A stretch of 64,000 bases of DNA, taken from contig NC_065539.1 of assembly GCF_932294415.1 (NCBI RefSeq), positions 50,921,501-50,985,500 of the forward strand, read 5' to 3'. Position 1 is the stretch's first letter; every line of letters starts with the position of its first letter. A model generated the notes under the pieces. That model made no database searches. It saw nothing but the letters and a program-made list of their open reading frames with translations, and was not told the origin of the DNA. The stretch is from Quercus robur (taxonomy: Eukaryota > Streptophyta > Magnoliopsida > Fagales > Fagaceae). The translations under genes and the position numbers were made by a program. This document shows positions 7,792-49,307 of the stretch, in pieces.

Positions 7792-9054
7792 TTGAAAGTT
7801 GCATCCATGAATTGCTCTTTGTTTTGCAAGTTGCTTCTTGATGACTCAGATGAGAATAAGATAATCAAAGAACTTGTTATGGAAACATCACAACCTAAAT
7901 GCTGTCACTCTATCCAACGTAATCATTTAGTAGGCCGTGAGAGGTTTTTTCTTGATTATTTTGCTCCCACACCAATATATCCACCCGCTTTATTTCATGG
8001 GAGATTTCGGATGAAGCGTTCTCTTTTTCTCCGTATTCAATTTAAGGTAGAAGCTCATGACTCTTATTTTGTCCAAAAAAGAAATAGTGCTAACAAACTT
8101 GGTTTATCTTCATTATAAAAGCTAACTGCTACACTTAGAATGCTTGCATATGGAGTATCGGGTGATTTGATAGATGGATATATGCGGATTGGAGAAACTA
8201 CTACATTAGAAAGTTTGAAAAAATTTGTTATTGCGGTAATTGATGCTTTCTCTAAGGAATACTTGAAAAAGCCAAACAATGAAAACATTGTTAGACTGTT
8301 AGCTCATGGCGAATGCTGAGGTTTTCCAGGTATGTTAGGATCAATTGATTGCATGCATTGGAAGTGGAAAAATTGTCCATCTGCATAGAAAGGTCAATAT
8401 TGTGATCATATTCATGAGCCTACTATTATTTTGGCAACAGTAACATCATATGATCATTGGATATGACATGTATTTTTTGGGTTACCTAGGTCAAATAATG
8501 ATATTAATGTGTTAGAGAGATCTCATATATTTAATGAACTTGTTGAAGGACGAGCTCCTGCAATACATTACTCAATCAATGGTCATGACTACACAATGGG
8601 ATATCACCTTACTGATGGCATATATCCAAAGTGGGCAACATTTGTGAAAACAATCTCAGCTCCACAAGGACATAAGCGAAAATTATTTTCAGCAGTCCAA
8701 GAGGCGTATAAGAAGGATGTTGAGCGTGCATTTGGAGTGCTTCAAGCACGTTTTGCAATTGTTCGTAGACCTGCACAATTTTTCCATCTTAAAATACTCC
8801 AAACGATCATGAAAGCGTGCATAATTCTCCATAACATGATTGTTGAAGATGAGCGGGATGATAATGAAGTAGTAGACTTGGATTATGAACAAATTGATGG
8901 AGTGGATAATCCTTCTATGCAAGTGTTACATGAACAAAGTGATGGATTTATGTCATACATTGAGAGGTATAGGCGCATTAGAGATCAAGAAATTCATTTT
9001 CAACTCCCGTTGGATCTCATTAAACATTTATGGCAATTGCAAGGCGAGTCATAA
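7792..9054 (+). pseudogene. PIF/Harbinger DDE transposase (nonsense-inactivated)
   Basis: A HARBI1/ALP1-like nuclease domain that in active elements cuts and rejoins transposon ends. One reading frame runs throughout, interrupted by four stops near 8116, 8318, 8386 and 8464. The catalytic triad is still visible: first Asp in GSIDCMHW (about 8340-8365), second Asp in RSNNDINVL (about 8490-8512), and Glu in KDVERAFGVLQARF (about 8715-8755). The C-terminal open part alone is 8509-9054. The opening frame begins with an alternative codon, so the true start is uncertain. Each stop can be explained by a single C-to-T type change. No frameshift was noticed. Confidence 0.88.
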
Positions 9055-30500: not shown

Positions 30501-33500
30501 TAATGTTGACACAGATATACATGCCTCAACAAGTGTTGCTTTAACATGTGTGCAAGGAAATGAATTTATTGAAGAGTAGCAAGGTGAAGAAATGGTGCCT
30601 AAAGAGAGTATTATGTTATAAGGTGCACGTGATGTGATATTGGAAGCTAATGAATCTGCTTTTGATCAGCCTTCCATGGTGCATGAAGACAAACAGTTTG
30701 CTCAAGTGGAGAAAGTGGATAACATAGTGCTTCCAATGGTTCAAGCAACACCAAAGCCTAATGTTGACACAGATGTACATGTCTTGACAAGTGTTGCTTT
30801 AACATGCGTGCAAGGAAATGAATTTATTGAAGAGCAGCAAGGTGAAGAAATGGTGCCTAAAGAGAGTGTTATGTTATAGGGTGCACATGATGTGATATTG
30901 GAAGCTAATGAATCTGCTTTTGATCAGCCTTCCAAGGTGCATGAAGACAAACAGTTTGCTAAAGTGGAGAAAGTGGATAACATAGTGCTTCCAATGGTTC
31001 AAGATAAGATTATGTTGATTCCACACATTGATTTTGTTATTCCAGAAGAGTTTGACATGGTGGAATTCAAGGTTTTTCTTTTCTCCATGCTCCCTAGGGT
31101 GATTCTAGACTTGAAGCAAGTGTTACTTGTTAGCATCCTAATCCTTCAACGCTTTAGAACTCGAGGTCGAGTTTTCTCCAACCAGAGGAGAATGATGCAG
31201 GAGACGCAAGAAGATTTTTATTTAGTATTATTTATGTTTGCAAGTCAATTGTATTTTTTATGTTTTAGGTCCTAGTAGTTTATTAGACTATTATTATTTT
31301 AATTTGGAAGCAAGGTTATTTTCGTAATAAAGCAATTAGGGTTTCCTAGCCAATTAGAACTAGGGTTTAGCAATCCTTTATAAGCAACCTATTGTACTCC
31401 TTAAGGAGATAGTTGATATTTTGATGAATGAAAAAATGGTCATTTGGTCTTTCTTTAGTCTGGTGCTGATTTTAGGTCTACCCTAGGTTCTGACTCCTAG
31501 TGGTTTTCCCACTTGGTACTGACTCCAAGCAAAGCCTAGGTGCTGGCTCCTAGGTCATATCCCTTTATTTTTCTATTGTTTCAGTTTTGTTTTGGTTGTC
31601 CTGCGTCATATGTAGCACAAGCATATTATGAAAAGTCATTATAATGTAGTCCAATCACCAAAGTGTTTTTACTATTGGACGTTTCATAAAGCCTAATTAG
31701 TAGATCCTTCTTATGCACACTTCAGCCAGTTATGTGTTGATTTCTACCAATTCGTTTTTCTGATTCACTGCTTTATATTCCTCCTATTTCTTAAGGATTT
31801 ATTTACTGGCATCTCTCTATGCTGGACAACTAAGTCTGGCAGGAGAGCTCTAGAGTTTCTTTTTGTTACATTGACTTTAAGACCGTATAGATTTGAATCC
31901 ATTGTTCATAAATTCTACATTATTCTATAGTCATTATAATCAATGAAACATTACATTGATTCAAGATCTCCTGAAATGTTGTTGATTTTTTCTATGTTTT
32001 AAATAGTTTATGTTAGGGTCAAAACTTTGCGTAACTATTAACTACCCTATATACATTGAACACACTGGTCACAGGGCTTCATTTTCTTTTTGCTGCAAAC
32101 TGTCCTTTTCTCTATATTACTAGTCGCTGTCTAGTGAATTTGAGTAACAGTTGAAGCATGCATTTTTTCTCACCATTACTTTAGTGCTGTAGGTCTTTGT
32201 CTTTCTAGCTGCTGAGTATGAAACCCCAAAGAATTCTCTGAATCAGGTATGCTCTAGTGCATTATGATGCACTATTACAACAGTGCTATTATTTTTATTC
32301 TGTTCTTATTTTGGTTAGTTTAAAAGGATGCTTAACATTTATGTTGCTGGATAATATGGACTAGGACAGTCAGCTTGGGACCTTGCCTCATGAAATGGAG
32401 GTTGCTAGCTTGAATGTCTCAATCCCCATCCCCTTGGGGCCATAAATATTACTTATTAAAATATACTTTTTATCTCACCACAGCTACGTAACTGCACTAT
32501 TTGGAAACAAATTCTGTATACTTATTTGGTACTGCTAGCATTTGGCAAATTGGGTTTTGATGGGAGACATAAGCAGTCTTCTGTAGAGTAGTACTTTTCC
32601 TCTCCATGACTTTTGCCCTGGTTTTGCTAACTAAGCAACAAATAATGTTAGTACAGCCACTTATCGAAGTTTATGTTAGCATAGCCACTGAATTCTAAGT
32701 TGCCTAAGGAGATTGTCCATTGAAATTGGATACCTCACGTTTAGGACAAATGACTGTTGTGCCTCTATTTTCCCATGGCACATCCTCTAAAAGTGTTACA
32801 CTTCCTCGTGCTCAAGTGTTCTGTGGCTATGTATTAATCCATGAATGCACAGGTCCAGAGGAAAGACACTCCCTCTTCCATGGAGAGTATGAAACCTTTT
32901 CATAGACCAGAGAATTTTCCGACAGTCTCCATTCCCTGCTTTCCCACCTTTCAGCCCAACCGCCTTAAATCCTCCTCCAGTGGCTCTTCACAATCTTGCT
33001 TTTAATAGGATTCTTTGTACACTGCAATAGGAAACTCTAAATTTCAGACCCGTTCATGACACTTCATGGACTCCATTCAAATGGTATCTCACCCTGCCAT
33101 GGGGTGCCTTTTCATGTCCAATTCTACACACTTTTCATGTCTGCTGTCTCCCTTATTATTTTTAATTATGATGGAGGTGTTTAGTAGGATGGTGAAGAGA
33201 ATGGAGGGGGCAGGATTACTTTGTGGCTTTAGGGCAGATGGCAGGAGGGGCAGAGGGGAATGTGTTTCGCATTTACTATTTGCGAATGATACCATTTTGT
33301 TTTGTGAGGCAGCAGTGGAGCAAATCCTTCATATTCGATTGTTGCTACTTTGTTTTCAGGCTATGACCGGTTTGAAGGTTAACGTAGCTAAGAGCGAAAT
33401 GATTCCTATAGGAGAGGTAAATAATGTGCATGCTTTGGCAGAGATATTGGGTTGTAGGGTTGGGTCCCCGCCAATGACTTATCTTGGTATGTTGCTGGGA

Positions 33501-35616
33501 GCGTCCCATAAAGCCCCCTCTATTTGGAACCCGATATTAGAAAAAATTGAAAGAAAGTTAGCAGGTTGGAAGAAGTTGTATTTGTCAAAAGGTGGCAGAT
33601 TGACATTGCTTAAAAGCACACTATCTAGCCTCCCTACTTATTTCTTATCTCTTTTCACCATTCCTACACTTGTGGCGAACAAAATTCAGAAGCTGCAAAG
33701 GGACTTCTTGTGGGGTGACACTAAGACACATTTGTTGGGTTGGGATAAGGTGTGCATGCCTAATGGTGGTTTGGGTATTAGGAAGTTAACCATGTTCAAT
33801 AAAGCCTTACTTGGAAAGTGGCTTTGGCATTTTGGGATCGAGGAGAATAGGCTGTAGTGGAGGGTGGTAGCTTTGAAATTTGGGGAAGAATGGGGGTGAT
33901 GGACCTCTAAGTTGGGAAGGGGTGCTCATGGGTGTGGTCTGTGGAGAAGTATTCGGATGGGATGGGAAATGTTTTGCAAAAATGTCCACTTTAAGGTTGG
34001 GGTGGGGGATAGAGTGAAATTCTAGACAGACAGGTGGTGTGGAGATCTTCCTCTCCAGTTGGCTTTTCCGATCTTGTACACTCTTGCTGCAAAACAAAGA
34101 AGCTTCCGTAGAATCATCTTTGTTGTGCCAAGGAGCGGAGAACAGGAGAACTTGGGATGTTCGCTTCATTCGGGGTCCTAATGATTGGGAGGCAAATGTG
34201 GTGGATGATTTCTTCCGATTCTTGGCATCCAATCTACCCCTTGTAACTGAGGGTGATCGTATGAGATGGAAGTTGACAAAAAAAGGGGATTTTACTATCC
34301 GCTCATTTTATCACAAGTTGCATTGTTCTTCTTCCATTGTCTTTCCATGGAAAGGTATTTGGAAGGTTAAGGCACTCCGGCGTGTCTCTTTCTTTGTTTG
34401 GACAACGGCATGGGATAGGATTCTCACAGGAGATAATTTGAGGCTTAAGGGCTATGACTTTGTTGATTGGTGTATTATGTGTCGGTGTTGTGGGAAGACA
34501 GTGGATCACTTGTTGTTACATTGTGGAAAGGCTTATCAACTATGGTGCTTTGTCTATAGAATCTTTGGGATTTCATGGGTCCCCTCTGGTACGGTGTCAG
34601 ATCTTCTTTTTAGCTGGTGGAATTGGCTGGGGAAGCATTCATCTCACATTTGGAATTTAGTTCGATTGTGTCTGATGTGGTGTATTTGGAGGGAACGCAA
34701 TTGACGAACATTTGAGGATTTGGATAGATCCGATGACCAAATGCTCGCTCTTTTTTTTGGTTCCCTTTTTGATTGGGTTAGGGTTTGGGGACTCACATCT
34801 AGTGATTCTCTCCCGTCCTTCCTTAGCTCTCTTCTTCTTTGTTCTTAGTGTTATTCTTCTTTTATGTTTTTTCTTTTCCTTCTTTTCTTGTACGTTTGAT
34901 ATGCTAGTGCTTCTTTGCATTTAGCAGTTTATTGAATATACATGTTTCTTACCTATCAAAAAAAAAAAAAAAAAAGATTTCTTGTGCATGCTTATTGTCT
35001 TAATCTGGTCCATCCTGCATAATTTGATGGACTGGTTGGATCTTATTGTTATGGAACAGGTTTCCCTTTGGGATGATATTATACCATCTAAAGAACGCGC
35101 AAAGTTTTTGATTCACACCACAAATAAGTATCGCTTTATTGATCAGGTAAGCCTTTGGTATTTAGCACTTTTCATGTGTAGACCAGAACTGTTTTTGATT
35201 CACACCACAAATAAGTATCGCTTTATTGATCAGGTAAGCCTTTGGTATTTAGCACTTTTAATGTGTAGACCAGAACTGTCTGGCCTACGTAACAAGCTTG
35301 TATCCATAGTAGATACATATTTCAGAATTTCATAGTAACTGTGCTTCTCATTTGGTGGTAGTCACTGTGCTTATCTAGCAGGACAGTGAATATAGTCCAA
35401 TTTTATAGTCTGTTTTTAACATAGAAAACCACTGCTTACATTTTACTGAGTATGACTGGTGATCTGTCTTCTTCCTTTTGTTACTCTCAGGGAAGCAATC
35501 TGCAGGGTAAAGAGTTTAACTTGACTCTGCACTGGCATGTCATGCCCAAAACTGGCAAGATGTTTGCTGACAAAATAGTTATGACTGGATACCGTCTGCC
35601 AGAAGAATATAGATAA
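27531..35616 (+). CDS. SPC3: Signal peptidase complex subunit 3 (six exons)
   Basis: The noncatalytic luminal subunit (SPC22/23, SPCS3) of the ER signal peptidase, which removes signal peptides from secreted proteins. Exons: 27531-27656, 27767-27814, 28494-28556, 32193-32246, 35060-35146 and 35491-35616. All are GT-AG and all junctions are in phase 0, giving 167 aa, the length of the Arabidopsis proteins. The start [15 protein letters not shown] begins a single signal anchor (about 12-28). The rest is luminal, with NIS (64-66) and NLT (136-138) glycosylation sites, [18 protein letters not shown] (74-91), and the conserved end [17 protein letters not shown]. The 5' leader contains gggcccagcccaaac (27236-27250), a site II-like motif common in housekeeping promoters. 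Introns 3 and 4 are swollen by a gag-only LTR element and a LINE. The end of exon 5 is duplicated in intron 5. Confidence 0.95.
28008..28240. mobile_element. MITE in SPC3 intron 2
   Basis: Inverted ends gcttaaatgtactgtttgtc and the reverse complement of gggaccaataatgtacttta. The inside repeats motifs such as ttttgagtgattttaatcct versus aggactaaaattgatcactt on opposite strands, which gives a hairpin-like structure. A clear duplication of flanking bases was not resolved. Confidence 0.5.
28852..29263 (+). repeat. 5' LTR of the gag-only element
   Basis: 412 bp, ending ttgtcctgcgtca. It is highly similar by eye to the 3' LTR at 31193-31608, with scattered differences and a few short indels, so the insertion is not brand new. 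Confidence 0.9.
29268..29279 (+). promoter_or_regulatory. Primer binding site (initiator Met-tRNA)
   Basis: TGGTATCAGAGC, the standard complement of the plant initiator Met-tRNA 3' end, four bases after the 5' LTR. Confidence 0.9.
29907..31190 (+). pseudogene. Retrotransposon gag-like protein, broken, with internal duplication
   Basis: The gag-like domain is clearest at 29972-30232: [20 protein letters not shown], then [15 protein letters not shown] and [19 protein letters not shown], the pattern of the plant retrotransposon-gag family. Reading can be pushed upstream to an ATG near 29907 only with an in-frame TGA at about 29954. Downstream, three open pieces (30331-30579, 30634-30879, 30892-31275) are separated by stops, and two of them are copies of one another. 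No zinc knuckle was seen. The capsid-like function is inferred from family only. Confidence 0.72.
30484..30999 (+). repeat. 258-bp tandem duplication inside the gag region
   Basis: Copies are 30484-30741 and 30742-30999. Landmarks caagcaacaccaaag, ggtgaagaaatggtgcc and gatattggaagctaatg recur exactly 258 bp apart with few mismatches. The unit is a multiple of three, so protein sequence repeats too ([22 protein letters not shown]). Confidence 0.92.
31193..31608 (+). repeat. 3' LTR of the gag-only element
   Basis: 416 bp, TGATGCAGGAGACGC to CTGCGTCA, followed by TATGT. See the 5' LTR. Confidence 0.9.
31614..33065. other. Remainder of SPC3 introns 3 and 4; possible SINE near 32365-32455
   Basis: Apart from exon 4 (32193-32246) this is intron. 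At 32365-32455 a stretch with cttgggaccttgcc, a box B-like gcttgaatgtc and ccccttggggcc resembles a tRNA-derived SINE body. Its ends are not defined. Confidence 0.35.
33145..34975 (+). mobile_element. 5'-truncated L1-type LINE in SPC3 intron 4
   Basis: The 3' half of a plant L1 ORF2 in broken frames. RT C-terminal part at about 33145-33857: [16 protein letters not shown], the YADD-box equivalent [31 protein letters not shown] and [18 protein letters not shown]. Then a frame break, and the zinc-binding RT-associated domain at about 34261-34560 ([45 protein letters not shown]). An 18-base A tail ends the element at 34958-34975. It lies in the same orientation as the host gene. A candidate flanking repeat (gattctttgtacactgc near 33010 versus gatttcttgtgcatgc at 34976) is weak, so the 5' boundary is uncertain. 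Confidence 0.88.
35104..35277 (+). repeat. 87-bp tandem duplication of SPC3 exon 5 end plus splice donor
   Basis: Unit 35104-35190 is repeated at 35191-35277 with a single mismatch (ttcatg versus ttaatg). The unit covers the last 43 bases of exon 5, the GTAAGC donor, and the first 44 bases of intron 5. The period is a multiple of three and the frame stays open through both copies, so the second donor (35234) is usable in frame. Confidence 0.93.
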
Positions 35617-43319: not shown

Positions 43320-44266
43320 AGCAAAAATGCAAAATTGACCCTCTAACTTTTAGCTTTTGTCATTCCAATCCTCTAACTTTCAACTTTGTCATTTTAGTCC
43401 TCTAAGTTTCAATTTTTGTTAATGTAGTCTTCTATTAGAACTCAATTATCTTTTTCCATTAAGTAACCCTTTAACTTTCAGCTCTTTTTTTTTTTTTAAT
43501 AATAATTTTCATAATTAAAAGGAAAAAAAAAAAAAAAAAAAAGCAAGTAAGGGGAATGACGTTGTTCCCCTTACCTGTGAAATCAAAACCTTGAACATGT
43601 TGGAGAAGTCCAATTCATGAGCCTACATCTGAGTCCCAAATGAAACGTAGCCAACAAGGGTGTTCTCTGGCAACAAGCCAATGGCACGCCGCACGCCTCA
43701 AAGCCGATTTGACATAGCCCATCTCCTCCTCGATCATGCAAGTATCGAGCACGAAAACGAAAACCGGTTTTGCAGCGAAGATGAAGACGACGCAAGCGTA
43801 AGGGTTGAGAACAAAGGCACAGGTTTTGCAGCGAAGCAGAGCGTAGGGGAGCGTGAGGATGTCAGGGTGAGGGCGGATTGGAGAAATGGAGGCAGTGAGT
43901 GGGATTACGCACTTGCTCGCTTCAACCTTCGTTCATGTCCACACGTTCCAACTCATTCGAACTCCGTCGATTCCCTTTGGATTTGCGTTCGCCATTTTCG
44001 ATATGTTTTCCGACATGTTTTTTTCTTTTTCTTTTTTACAGCTTTTTTTTTTTTTTTTTTAGTTTTCTTTTAACTATGAAAATTATTATTAAAAAAAGGT
44101 CAAAATGGTGTAGTTTTGATCACTTAACGGAAAAAGATAACTAAGTTCTAACGAAAGACTACATTGACAAAAATTGATACTTAAAGGACTAAAATGACAA
44201 AATTGAAAGTTAGAAAACCGAAATGACAAAACTTGAAAGTTAGAGAGTCAGTTTTGCATTTTTACC
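43320..44266. mobile_element. Mutator-like element carrying a SEC23 fragment (Pack-MULE-like)
   Basis: Long inverted repeats of about 200 bp: 43320-43525 matches the reverse complement of about 44060-44266 (ends AGCAAAAATGCAAAATTGAC and GTCAGTTTTGCATTTTTACC). A 9-bp duplication with one mismatch flanks it, TACATTAAA (43311-43319) and TATATTAAA (44267-44275). These are the marks of a MULE. The interior carries a reversed piece of a host SEC23 gene. Confidence 0.9.
43577..43995 (-). pseudogene. SEC23: Captured SEC23 N-terminal fragment
   Basis: SEC23 is the COPII-coat GTPase-activating subunit for SAR1. The minus strand starts at an ATG (43995) with MANANPKGIDGVRMSWNVW. A TGA stop follows, then [20 protein letters not shown] and [14 protein letters not shown], the family's opening and zinc-finger start. 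About 50 residues are then missing. It resumes with [20 protein letters not shown] (trunk-domain start), a frameshift near 43690, then [19 protein letters not shown], a TAG stop, and [12 protein letters not shown]. It ends at a splice-donor-like CAG|GTAAGG at about 43576, so the capture was from genomic DNA, including an exon-intron border. Not functional as SEC23. The opposite strand is open over 43660-44073, probably by chance. Confidence 0.93.
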
Positions 44267-44275
44267 TATATTAAA

Positions 44276-46343
44276 TTATCTTTGTAGATTATTTATCTTT
44301 ATTTCATTATTTACAAGTGACAAGTGCACCTAGTTTTTTTTTTTTTTTTTTTTTTGTGGTGATAATAAGATTAGTAAACCTTGAAATATATAAACTTAAG
44401 AAATCAGGTAAAGGTATAAGCTTTGTAATCAGTTTAGGACAACTTGTTTTTAACACGAATTGGATATGATCCATTCAAGTCTAACCTAAATTCAATTTAC
44501 CTGAGTCCTAACCTATGAAAAGGTATTTGGTATATATCAAATGATATCATGTCAATGATATCAAAATTCAATAAGTGTAAGACATGTCAGCAAAAAATAA
44601 TTACCTCACTAACAAATAAAAGACACGTGTTAGTAGGTAGTTATTTTTACACAGATATTTCTCAATTATTGAATTTTAATACGAATGATATAGTATCATT
44701 TGATATAAAATATTTTTTCCCTAACCTATTTGTCAAGTCTACTATAAATTGACGTTCTAAATTTTTTATAATCATATTTTCTACACATTCTTCTCACACA
44801 TACAAGCTATGATTACAATCAATCTACAGTATTTGCAGTAATAATTTTTCAGTTTCAATAAAATAAGTAATATCCAAACACACCTTAAGTACCTGTTTCG
44901 ATACTGAGTCTATGTTCCACGTCCAACGTTTCACTTTTTCTTTTTTTTTTTAGAAGAGCAGATTATGTTTTTCCAGTGGGTTACGTGCATTATTCATGTG
45001 ACTCACAAGTACTTTATTCAACAACTTTTTTTTATTAAAAATAGGTTTTACGGTACTATTCACACATTTAAAAATTATTTTATTATAATATTTTCAATTT
45101 TTAGCAGTATTCAAATACACCCTAAGTCTCTTGTAAGCTATTTTTGATGAGTCTCTCGAAAGTTATTTGTCTCATACGATTATGAGACCTATATCTTATA
45201 ATAGTAAACATGCTGTATCTGATGAATGAAATAATGACACAAAACCAATCCTTTCAAACAATGGGCCATCAGCAAAACCATGGGCACACGCTCACTTGTC
45301 CTTCCATCACAATCCCTGGTATGGAACTTATCCACAATGAATCTACACGTCATTTCTTTAACTTTCGTTAATATTCTTCCTTTTACTCCTTTTTCTTTCT
45401 TCTTTTTTTTATTTTTTATTTTATTTTATGTTATTTCTATTTTTAAGATGAGACTGGGATCTGGATTTTTCACCACTTGGACAAGCCAGTCCCCCCCGTA
45501 TCTACTGCACACCAAACACAGAAATTATTCCACCTAAAGCTACATCACAAGTTTTAATCATTATGTAGGTCCAAAACTCCTTCCCACTTGGGTGGATCCC
45601 AGTCCCACCACAATTTTCCTTGCACTCCCTATCTTGGGGTTTTTATTTTTTAATTTTAATATGAATTTTCTATATACATTTTTTTTTTAAAAGAGGTTAT
45701 AGGCCTATAATAACTTTGGGTTCTTTTAACTTTTTGAATTTTGGACTGTTATTATTATGTCATCAATGAATGTCAAAATTTATAATTTGTAACGACAAAT
45801 TTATAATTATGTCATTCTTTCAGAAATATAGCAATAAAAAAAAAAAATGTAATCCGTTCATCATTAATGCCCTCAAATATCTTAAAATTATGTCATTCTT
45901 TCAGAAATATTGCAATTAAAAAAAAAATTAGTTTAGGGTCTTTAATCCAATCTTGACATAAGAACCACATTAATAGTGATTTTATTCTTGGATTGGTAAT
46001 TATAAATTTTAATACTTTGAGAGATGATACTGACAACTACCCTAAAATCATATAAGACAAAAACGTATTATAGCAAAATAATAAATGATATTATTAAAAA
46101 TTATGCCAAGAACAAGACTTATTTTTCTTTTTCAAAGGATAGGAAACTAACTAATTAGTGGAAGACCTTTAAATATGATTATAACAACACTCTGTCATTT
46201 AAAATTAAGTGGTTTGAATAATGACGCCTTCAATAAATGTGTTTTACTCACTATAATAATCTCATCAAGGTATATATCTTTACCGTCATCTATTATAAAG
46301 TTGATGAGTGCACACCAAAAACTCTATTATTATTATTTTTTTT

Positions 46344-48815: not shown

Positions 48816-49180
48816 GGTAAAATGCAAAACTAATCCTCTAAGTTTTTTCAGATTTCATTTCAGTCCTCTAACTTTGTTTTTGTTCATTTTAGTTCTCTAA
48901 CTTTCAAGTTTATTCAATTAAGACTTTCCATCAACTTTTGTTATATGTTGTGGTTAATTTTTCAATTTTATAAATTTTTCTTCAAATTTTTTAAATTAAA
49001 AAAATTCAATTAATGATTGAAAAATATTTTCTAGATTTCTTTTTTCAAAAAATTAACAAAAGTTAACGGAAAGACCTTAATTGAATAAATTTGAAACTTA
49101 GAGGACTGAAATGAACGAAAGCAAAGTTAGAGGACTGAAATAAAATCTGAAAAAAGTTAGAGAATCAGTTTTGCATTTTA
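48816..49180. mobile_element. MULE-type MITE
   Basis: Inverted arms of about 130 bp: GGTAAAATGCAAAACTAATC at the left and the reverse complement of cagttttgcatttta at the right. The ends resemble those of the SEC23-carrying element at 43320-44266 (gtaaaaatgcaaaactgac). No captured gene inside. Confidence 0.75.
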
Positions 49181-49307
49181 GTTTTTTTTTTTTTTTCTTC
49201 TCCCATGGGTAGTAATGTTGTCCTTTTTTTTCTTTTCTTTTTTTGGGCAACGTTGCCTTTTCTTCTTCTTCTTTTTTTCTTTTGATTTTCTAAGCTTGGG
49301 TGTGCCT

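Follow-up and report, generated by a model that had tools for sequence, protein, structure and literature searches.

At positions 43320-44266 of the 64-kb stretch of DNA that we analysed (the window; C6:50921501-50985500 of a source genome that was searched over 785,749,727 bases in 42 contigs) lies a decayed, non-autonomous Mutator-like element (MULE) of 947 bp, whose features are collected in Table 1. The first-pass annotation had placed the element ends at these positions with inverted ends of about 200 bp, and BLAST alignment agrees, revealing terminal inverted repeats (TIRs) of ~225 nt with 81.9% identity over a 226-column alignment (181 of 224 compared columns identical; K2P 0.23). The sequence GGCAAAAATGCA, or a close variant of it, forms the terminus of most sister copies. 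A 9-bp target site duplication (TSD), likewise predicted, is present as TACATTAAA and TATATTAAA, which match at eight of nine positions; the chance of a match of at least 8/9 is 0.00075 per random local pair, uncorrected for the few boundary choices. The mismatch in the TSD and the limited similarity of the TIRs are both explained by the age of the element. TIR length, TIR identity and TSD all fall within the limits for MULEs given in PMC3310237, namely TIRs of ~100-500 bp that are at least 80% alike and a TSD of 9-11 bp with at most two mismatches.

Elsewhere in the window, a gene for a DUF3700 (aluminium-induced) protein starts at ~54426, ~10 kb beyond the right end of the element, and is the nearest gene recognised among ten open reading frames scanned; a TAXi-type protease is also encoded. 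Together with a Plant_tran transposase, these genes make it evident that the DNA is from a plant. Remnants of other mobile elements include a transposase at 8509-9054 (Pfam Plant_tran, 1.9e-52), which we take to be of PIF/Harbinger type, and reverse transcriptase and zf-RVT sequences at 33066-34704, presumably of LINE type.

Table 1. Coordinates of the Pack-MULE, its parts and a related short element in the window
Feature	Position	Strand	Remarks
Left TSD TACATTAAA	43311..43319		9 bp
Left TIR	43320..43544	+	~225 nt; inverted-repeat alignment
Transposon subterminal hairpin	43544..43577	-	13-bp stem, 8-nt loop; contains supposed donor
Supposed donor CAGGTAAGG	43569-43577	-	inside transposon hairpin
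3' capture joint	43586..43590	-	GGTTT (5 nt), shared by transposon and SEC23 exon 1
Captured SEC23 exon-1 fragment	43586..44016	-	start to ~codon 197 of parent; frame broken
Joint of window-specific deletion	43763..43780	-	filler-like sequence, 94% repeat of 43819-43836
Right TIR	44041..44266	-	82% identical to left TIR
Right TSD TATATTAAA	44267..44275		8/9 match to left
Short element with related TIRs	48817..49182		105-nt arms (90%); without SEC23 match

The 496-nt interior of the element contains no transposase and consists of SEC23-derived sequence with short transposon edges. GC content is 51% in the captured part, 24-25% in the TIRs, 28-29% in the flanks and 33% in the window as a whole. 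The SEC23 homology is in reverse orientation, as had been claimed: the minus-strand translation matches the PDB SEC23A with E 3.5e-13, and tblastn of human SEC23A against the window (E 7.4e-14) returned residues 15-152 and 151-192 as two collinear pieces that lie in different frames. The best second match of that search outside the element reached only E 4.1, and SEC23 homology thus does not extend past both inverted repeats. Pfam matches of the broken window translation to SEC23 domains stayed below cut-off (E 0.016 and 0.056); the family assignment is based on the PDB match, the human tblastn search and genome-wide protein matches of the parent exon. A 137-aa plus-strand open reading frame at 43660-44073 was rejected as a gene, being antisense to the SEC23 fragment.

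Searches of the source genome located the parent exon at C6:26471807-26472616 (C6:26.47 Mb; locus L015), which has an open reading frame and bears SEC23 zinc-finger and trunk domains. The window element aligns with this exon at 91% over 226 nt and 87% over 183 nt, whereas the next paralogue (L031, C4:42.21 Mb) reaches 68% over 186 nt. Only element positions 267-449 and 464-689 are matched by the parent exon, and the captured fragment has 89.6% DNA identity to its parent over 413 compared bases; its upstream limit (43996-44016), which contains a small duplication, is approximate. Protein matches to the parent include the paralogues at C4:42.21 Mb (57%), C6:40.64 Mb (46 and 51%, two pieces) and C41:8.65 Mb (25%), and range from 48 to 93% for the five SEC23-bearing elements described below, a spread explained by the matched stretches being short and frameshifted. 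Over the first 1000 nt from the ATG, the parent has a GC content of 48-58% in steps of 200 nt, compared with ~30% at 400-200 nt upstream.

SEC23 sequence lies between TIRs of the window family in five copies: the window element and four further elements, at C40:48.61, C38:12.82, C38:34.63 and C6:24.89 Mb, which were recovered, together with a partial duplicate of the window copy at C5:67.25 Mb, by the search for other copies that the first-pass annotation had called for. With the C38:12.82 cargo as query, all eight candidates were scored: the parent, the C5 duplicate, one element of a different family, and five elements of the window family, among them the query and the window copy. An earlier genome search had scored 40 of 1071 candidates, so that the 144 matches it gave set a lower bound on the size of the TIR family. 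TSDs are perfect over 9 bp in three of the five copies and match at 8/9 in the window, none being clear at C6:24.89, and those of four copies are mutually different; the whole element has transposed to independent sites. The parent gene and the sister copies uphold the proposed Pack-MULE-like capture of the start of SEC23, in that a non-autonomous element carries a host-gene fragment whose parent lies elsewhere, with homology ending inside the TIRs and movement as a unit. The element is almost certainly a Pack-MULE, that is, a non-autonomous Mutator-like transposon that acquired ~600 bp of the first exon of the C6:26.47 Mb SEC23 gene, reaching from near the ATG to ~codon 197.

The first-pass annotation had further read a donor-like CAG|GTAAGG, close to where protein homology fades, as a splice donor at the end of the homology, and had concluded that genomic DNA rather than a cDNA had been captured. 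In such a capture, exon 1 would have been taken up together with the start of intron 1. Exon 1 of the parent, however, runs from the ATG at L015:4808 to a donor, inferred from sequence, near L015:5616; cargo homology ends at ~L015:5399, and the exon continues, with no intron at the joint, for ~215 nt beyond it. Genome searches found no other parent with an intron at this position. The donor-like stretch is, moreover, the transposon's own. A comparison set of 12 TIR-similar elements (L016-L027), all devoid of SEC23 matches at E 0.001, was aligned across the joint with the five SEC23 copies, giving 16 rows after omission of L024, whose match was too short. All 16 rows share the block ATCAAAAC without change, and a GGGGAA / TTCCCC stretch occurs in most; an exact scan found TTTTGATTTC in six of the 11 SEC23-free elements, one of which (L025) continues AGGTAAGGGG. 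In the donor region, L017 and L020 read TTTTGATTTCAGGGGAAGGGGAAC and L025 reads TTTTGATTTCAGGTAAGGGG, and one SEC23-free sister carries CAGGTAAGG itself. Among the five SEC23 copies, CAGGTAAGG occurs only in the window; C40 has CATGTAAGG, C38:12.82 has TAGGTAAGG and C6:24.89 has CAGGTTACT, and C38:34.63 is without it.

The presence of the donor-like sequence in SEC23-free sisters and the extension of exon 1 past the joint identify the supposed donor as subterminal transposon sequence, and we regard the capture of exon 1 plus intron start as exceedingly improbable. The hairpin that contains this sequence is unusually stable (z -4.76; none of 200 shuffles as stable); half of it is missing in C38:34.63 and most in C6:24.89. 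Donor-site statistics for the window (14 matches with at most one mismatch, two of them exact, vs 8.84 expected) were uninformative and were set aside. Genomic capture can thus be inferred wrongly from a donor-like motif that borders a captured fragment, since the motif may be transposon sequence. An intron-free fragment that starts near the ATG might suggest a cDNA or mRNA intermediate, yet the fragment lies wholly within one exon, so the absence of introns is uninformative and genomic and cDNA capture are not distinguishable from the fragment. It contains no exon-exon joint, MULEs are commonly regarded as capturing genes at the DNA level, and we consider a cDNA route very unlikely.

The parent match starts at element position 267 (43586) and the matches to SEC23-free sisters end at 270 or 271 (43590), so that GGTTT is common to both sequences; the joint is readable in four of the five copies, though not equally well in all, given the hairpin losses in C38:34.63 and C6:24.89. 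Judging from this one joint, capture of the exon into the Pack-MULE may have proceeded by template switching or gap repair at the 5-nt microhomology. Alternatively, neighbouring insertions might have fused, a route proposed for Pack-TYPE elements in PMC8903248. Mutator-type transposase acting in trans would then have relocated the element to new sites.

Lesions within the cargo refine two further claims. The internal deletion, put at about 50 codons, is real and larger, amounting to 180 nt (60 codons) relative to the parent; 65 nt of this gap are common to all five copies, and a further 115 nt net are missing from the window copy only. The element does carry the SEC23 N-terminus; the ATG at 43995 taken as the start codon is, however, the parent's internal Met-4, the parental initiator aligning to ATA, and another in-frame ATG comes from the small upstream duplication. 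Three lesions interrupt the reading frame of the window copy: a stop at codon 21 of the MANANP frame, a 7-nt insertion and a further stop in the next frame. At the window-specific joint an 18-nt stretch 56 nt away is repeated (94%), which we infer to be filler DNA, part of which could be retained parental sequence. After transposition, the window copy would have lost its additional 115 nt net, with short filler apparently copied from nearby, and then decayed. Substitutions in this copy fall evenly on the three codon positions (15/12/16), as would be expected of a non-coding relic.

The 65-nt deletion (parent CDS 352-416, counted from 0) and the 7-nt insertion before parent CDS 495 are present in all five copies, pointing to one capture that was already frameshifted and was then followed by transposition. 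From these shared lesions, the frameshift would have arisen before or early in the spread, and what spread would have been a non-coding passenger. Pairwise identities are 0.87-0.90 between copies and 0.88-0.90 between copy and parent, similar values that are consistent with spread soon after capture. A tree of the copies and the parent has weak support (0.68-0.77) and places the parent next to C38:34.63; it is the shared indels and the joint, rather than this tree, that speak for a single capture. Third-position changes number 28 of 57 in C40 and 31 of 62 in C38:12.82, more than in the window copy, an excess that may reflect a coding phase or another history, although the shared frameshifts argue against this.

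The copy at C5:67.25 Mb was rejected as a transposition event, as it is a 1.34-kb duplicate that also carries flank. Window positions 43910-45231 equal C5:67249814-67251151 (L014, L028+L029) at 98%, the duplicated block comprising a portion of the Pack-MULE and 965 bp of adjoining host sequence, with clean edges. No TSD was evident and no vehicle recognised at the edges of this block.

The search for paralogues also revealed a second MULE family, of which three copies were found, at C38:5642145 (L032), C1:32347212 (L033) and C4:34779882 (L041). Each carries, between long inverted repeats, the start of paralogue L031 (C4:42.2 Mb), from ~31 nt before the ATG to ~codon 148-150, with DNA identities to L031 of 94.7, 92.1 and 81.6%, respectively; between L032 and L033, identity is 88% over 2 kb. 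The TIRs are longer than those of the window family and different from them, matching only in short A/T-rich stretches. By eye, L032 has a perfect 9-bp TSD (TTGATGATA), L033 a run of A and L041 an 8/9 match. L032 and L033 have stops within the SEC23 part, and the frame of L041 is shifted and then stops, so that reading frames are broken in all eight SEC23-bearing copies, five of the window family and three of the second. At the level of sequence, these data demonstrate that two MULE families independently captured the start exons of two different SEC23 paralogues. The second capture could serve as a case of selection, or of MULEs preferentially taking up GC-rich gene starts. A different cargo occurs within the window TIR family: L019 (C40:404600-407700) carries a pentatricopeptide-repeat fragment (Pfam PPR_2, 5.5e-10), and L021 (C1:43344600-43347700) has a seemingly PPR-like frame on the strand opposite to that of L019, so this family has captured more than one gene.

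Most likely the window element does nothing now and is an inert relic. Retention of the copies for small RNAs acting in trans on SEC23 would be favoured by long TIRs that could form double-stranded RNA and by exact 21-mers shared with the parents: of the 790 in parent exon 1, the window copy shares 36 and its four sisters 40-47 apiece, and the three second-family loci share 76-109 of 469 with their own parent. These exact 21-mers are few, however, and the copies are decayed, and we consider such a role very improbable. More broadly, the SEC23 start exon could be pictured as a recurrent capture target whose eight dispersed copies form a trans-acting small-RNA brake on COPII dosage, a long shot of which the regulatory part is speculation.

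Pack-MULE or Mutator-like gene fragments with Sec23 were not reported in the literature searched, in which neither the TIR letters nor independent acquisition, as worded, found a match. Relatives of the TIR pattern in IMG/VR were limited to one locus on a 52-kb contig, with a chance-like 27-nt match, and pattern stretches for the SEC23 piece (63 in viral_contigs, 262 in genome_contigs) gave no confirmed case. The nearest known counterpart is tomato PM-ZIBP-1, which, according to PMC3310237, is likewise non-autonomous and of similar size (944 vs 947 bp here), with TIRs 87% alike (82% here), a 9-bp A/T-rich TSD, one gene fragment, an identifiable parent and several family copies. Compared with that description, the window element has SEC23 as its cargo and no visible tandem TIRs, and the interior of its family was frameshifted before or early in its spread. 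PMC4858842 reports GC-rich captured exon sequence in rice Pack-MULEs and genic MULEs and a bias toward GC-rich capture; the GC-rich cargo and parent exon are in line with that bias, although the source here, with a window at 33% GC, is not a grass-type GC-rich genome. For animal Pack-TIRs, PMC8277862 gives capture-joint microhomology of 1-36 bp (median 2 bp), which the 5 nt found here resemble, and describes single-copy elements that are mostly near their parents and untransposed, unlike the multicopy, dispersed window family. The process is well known and the window element is a real but ordinary example of it, adding one Pack-MULE family that has been traced through its parent, its joint, its copies and the order of its lesions.
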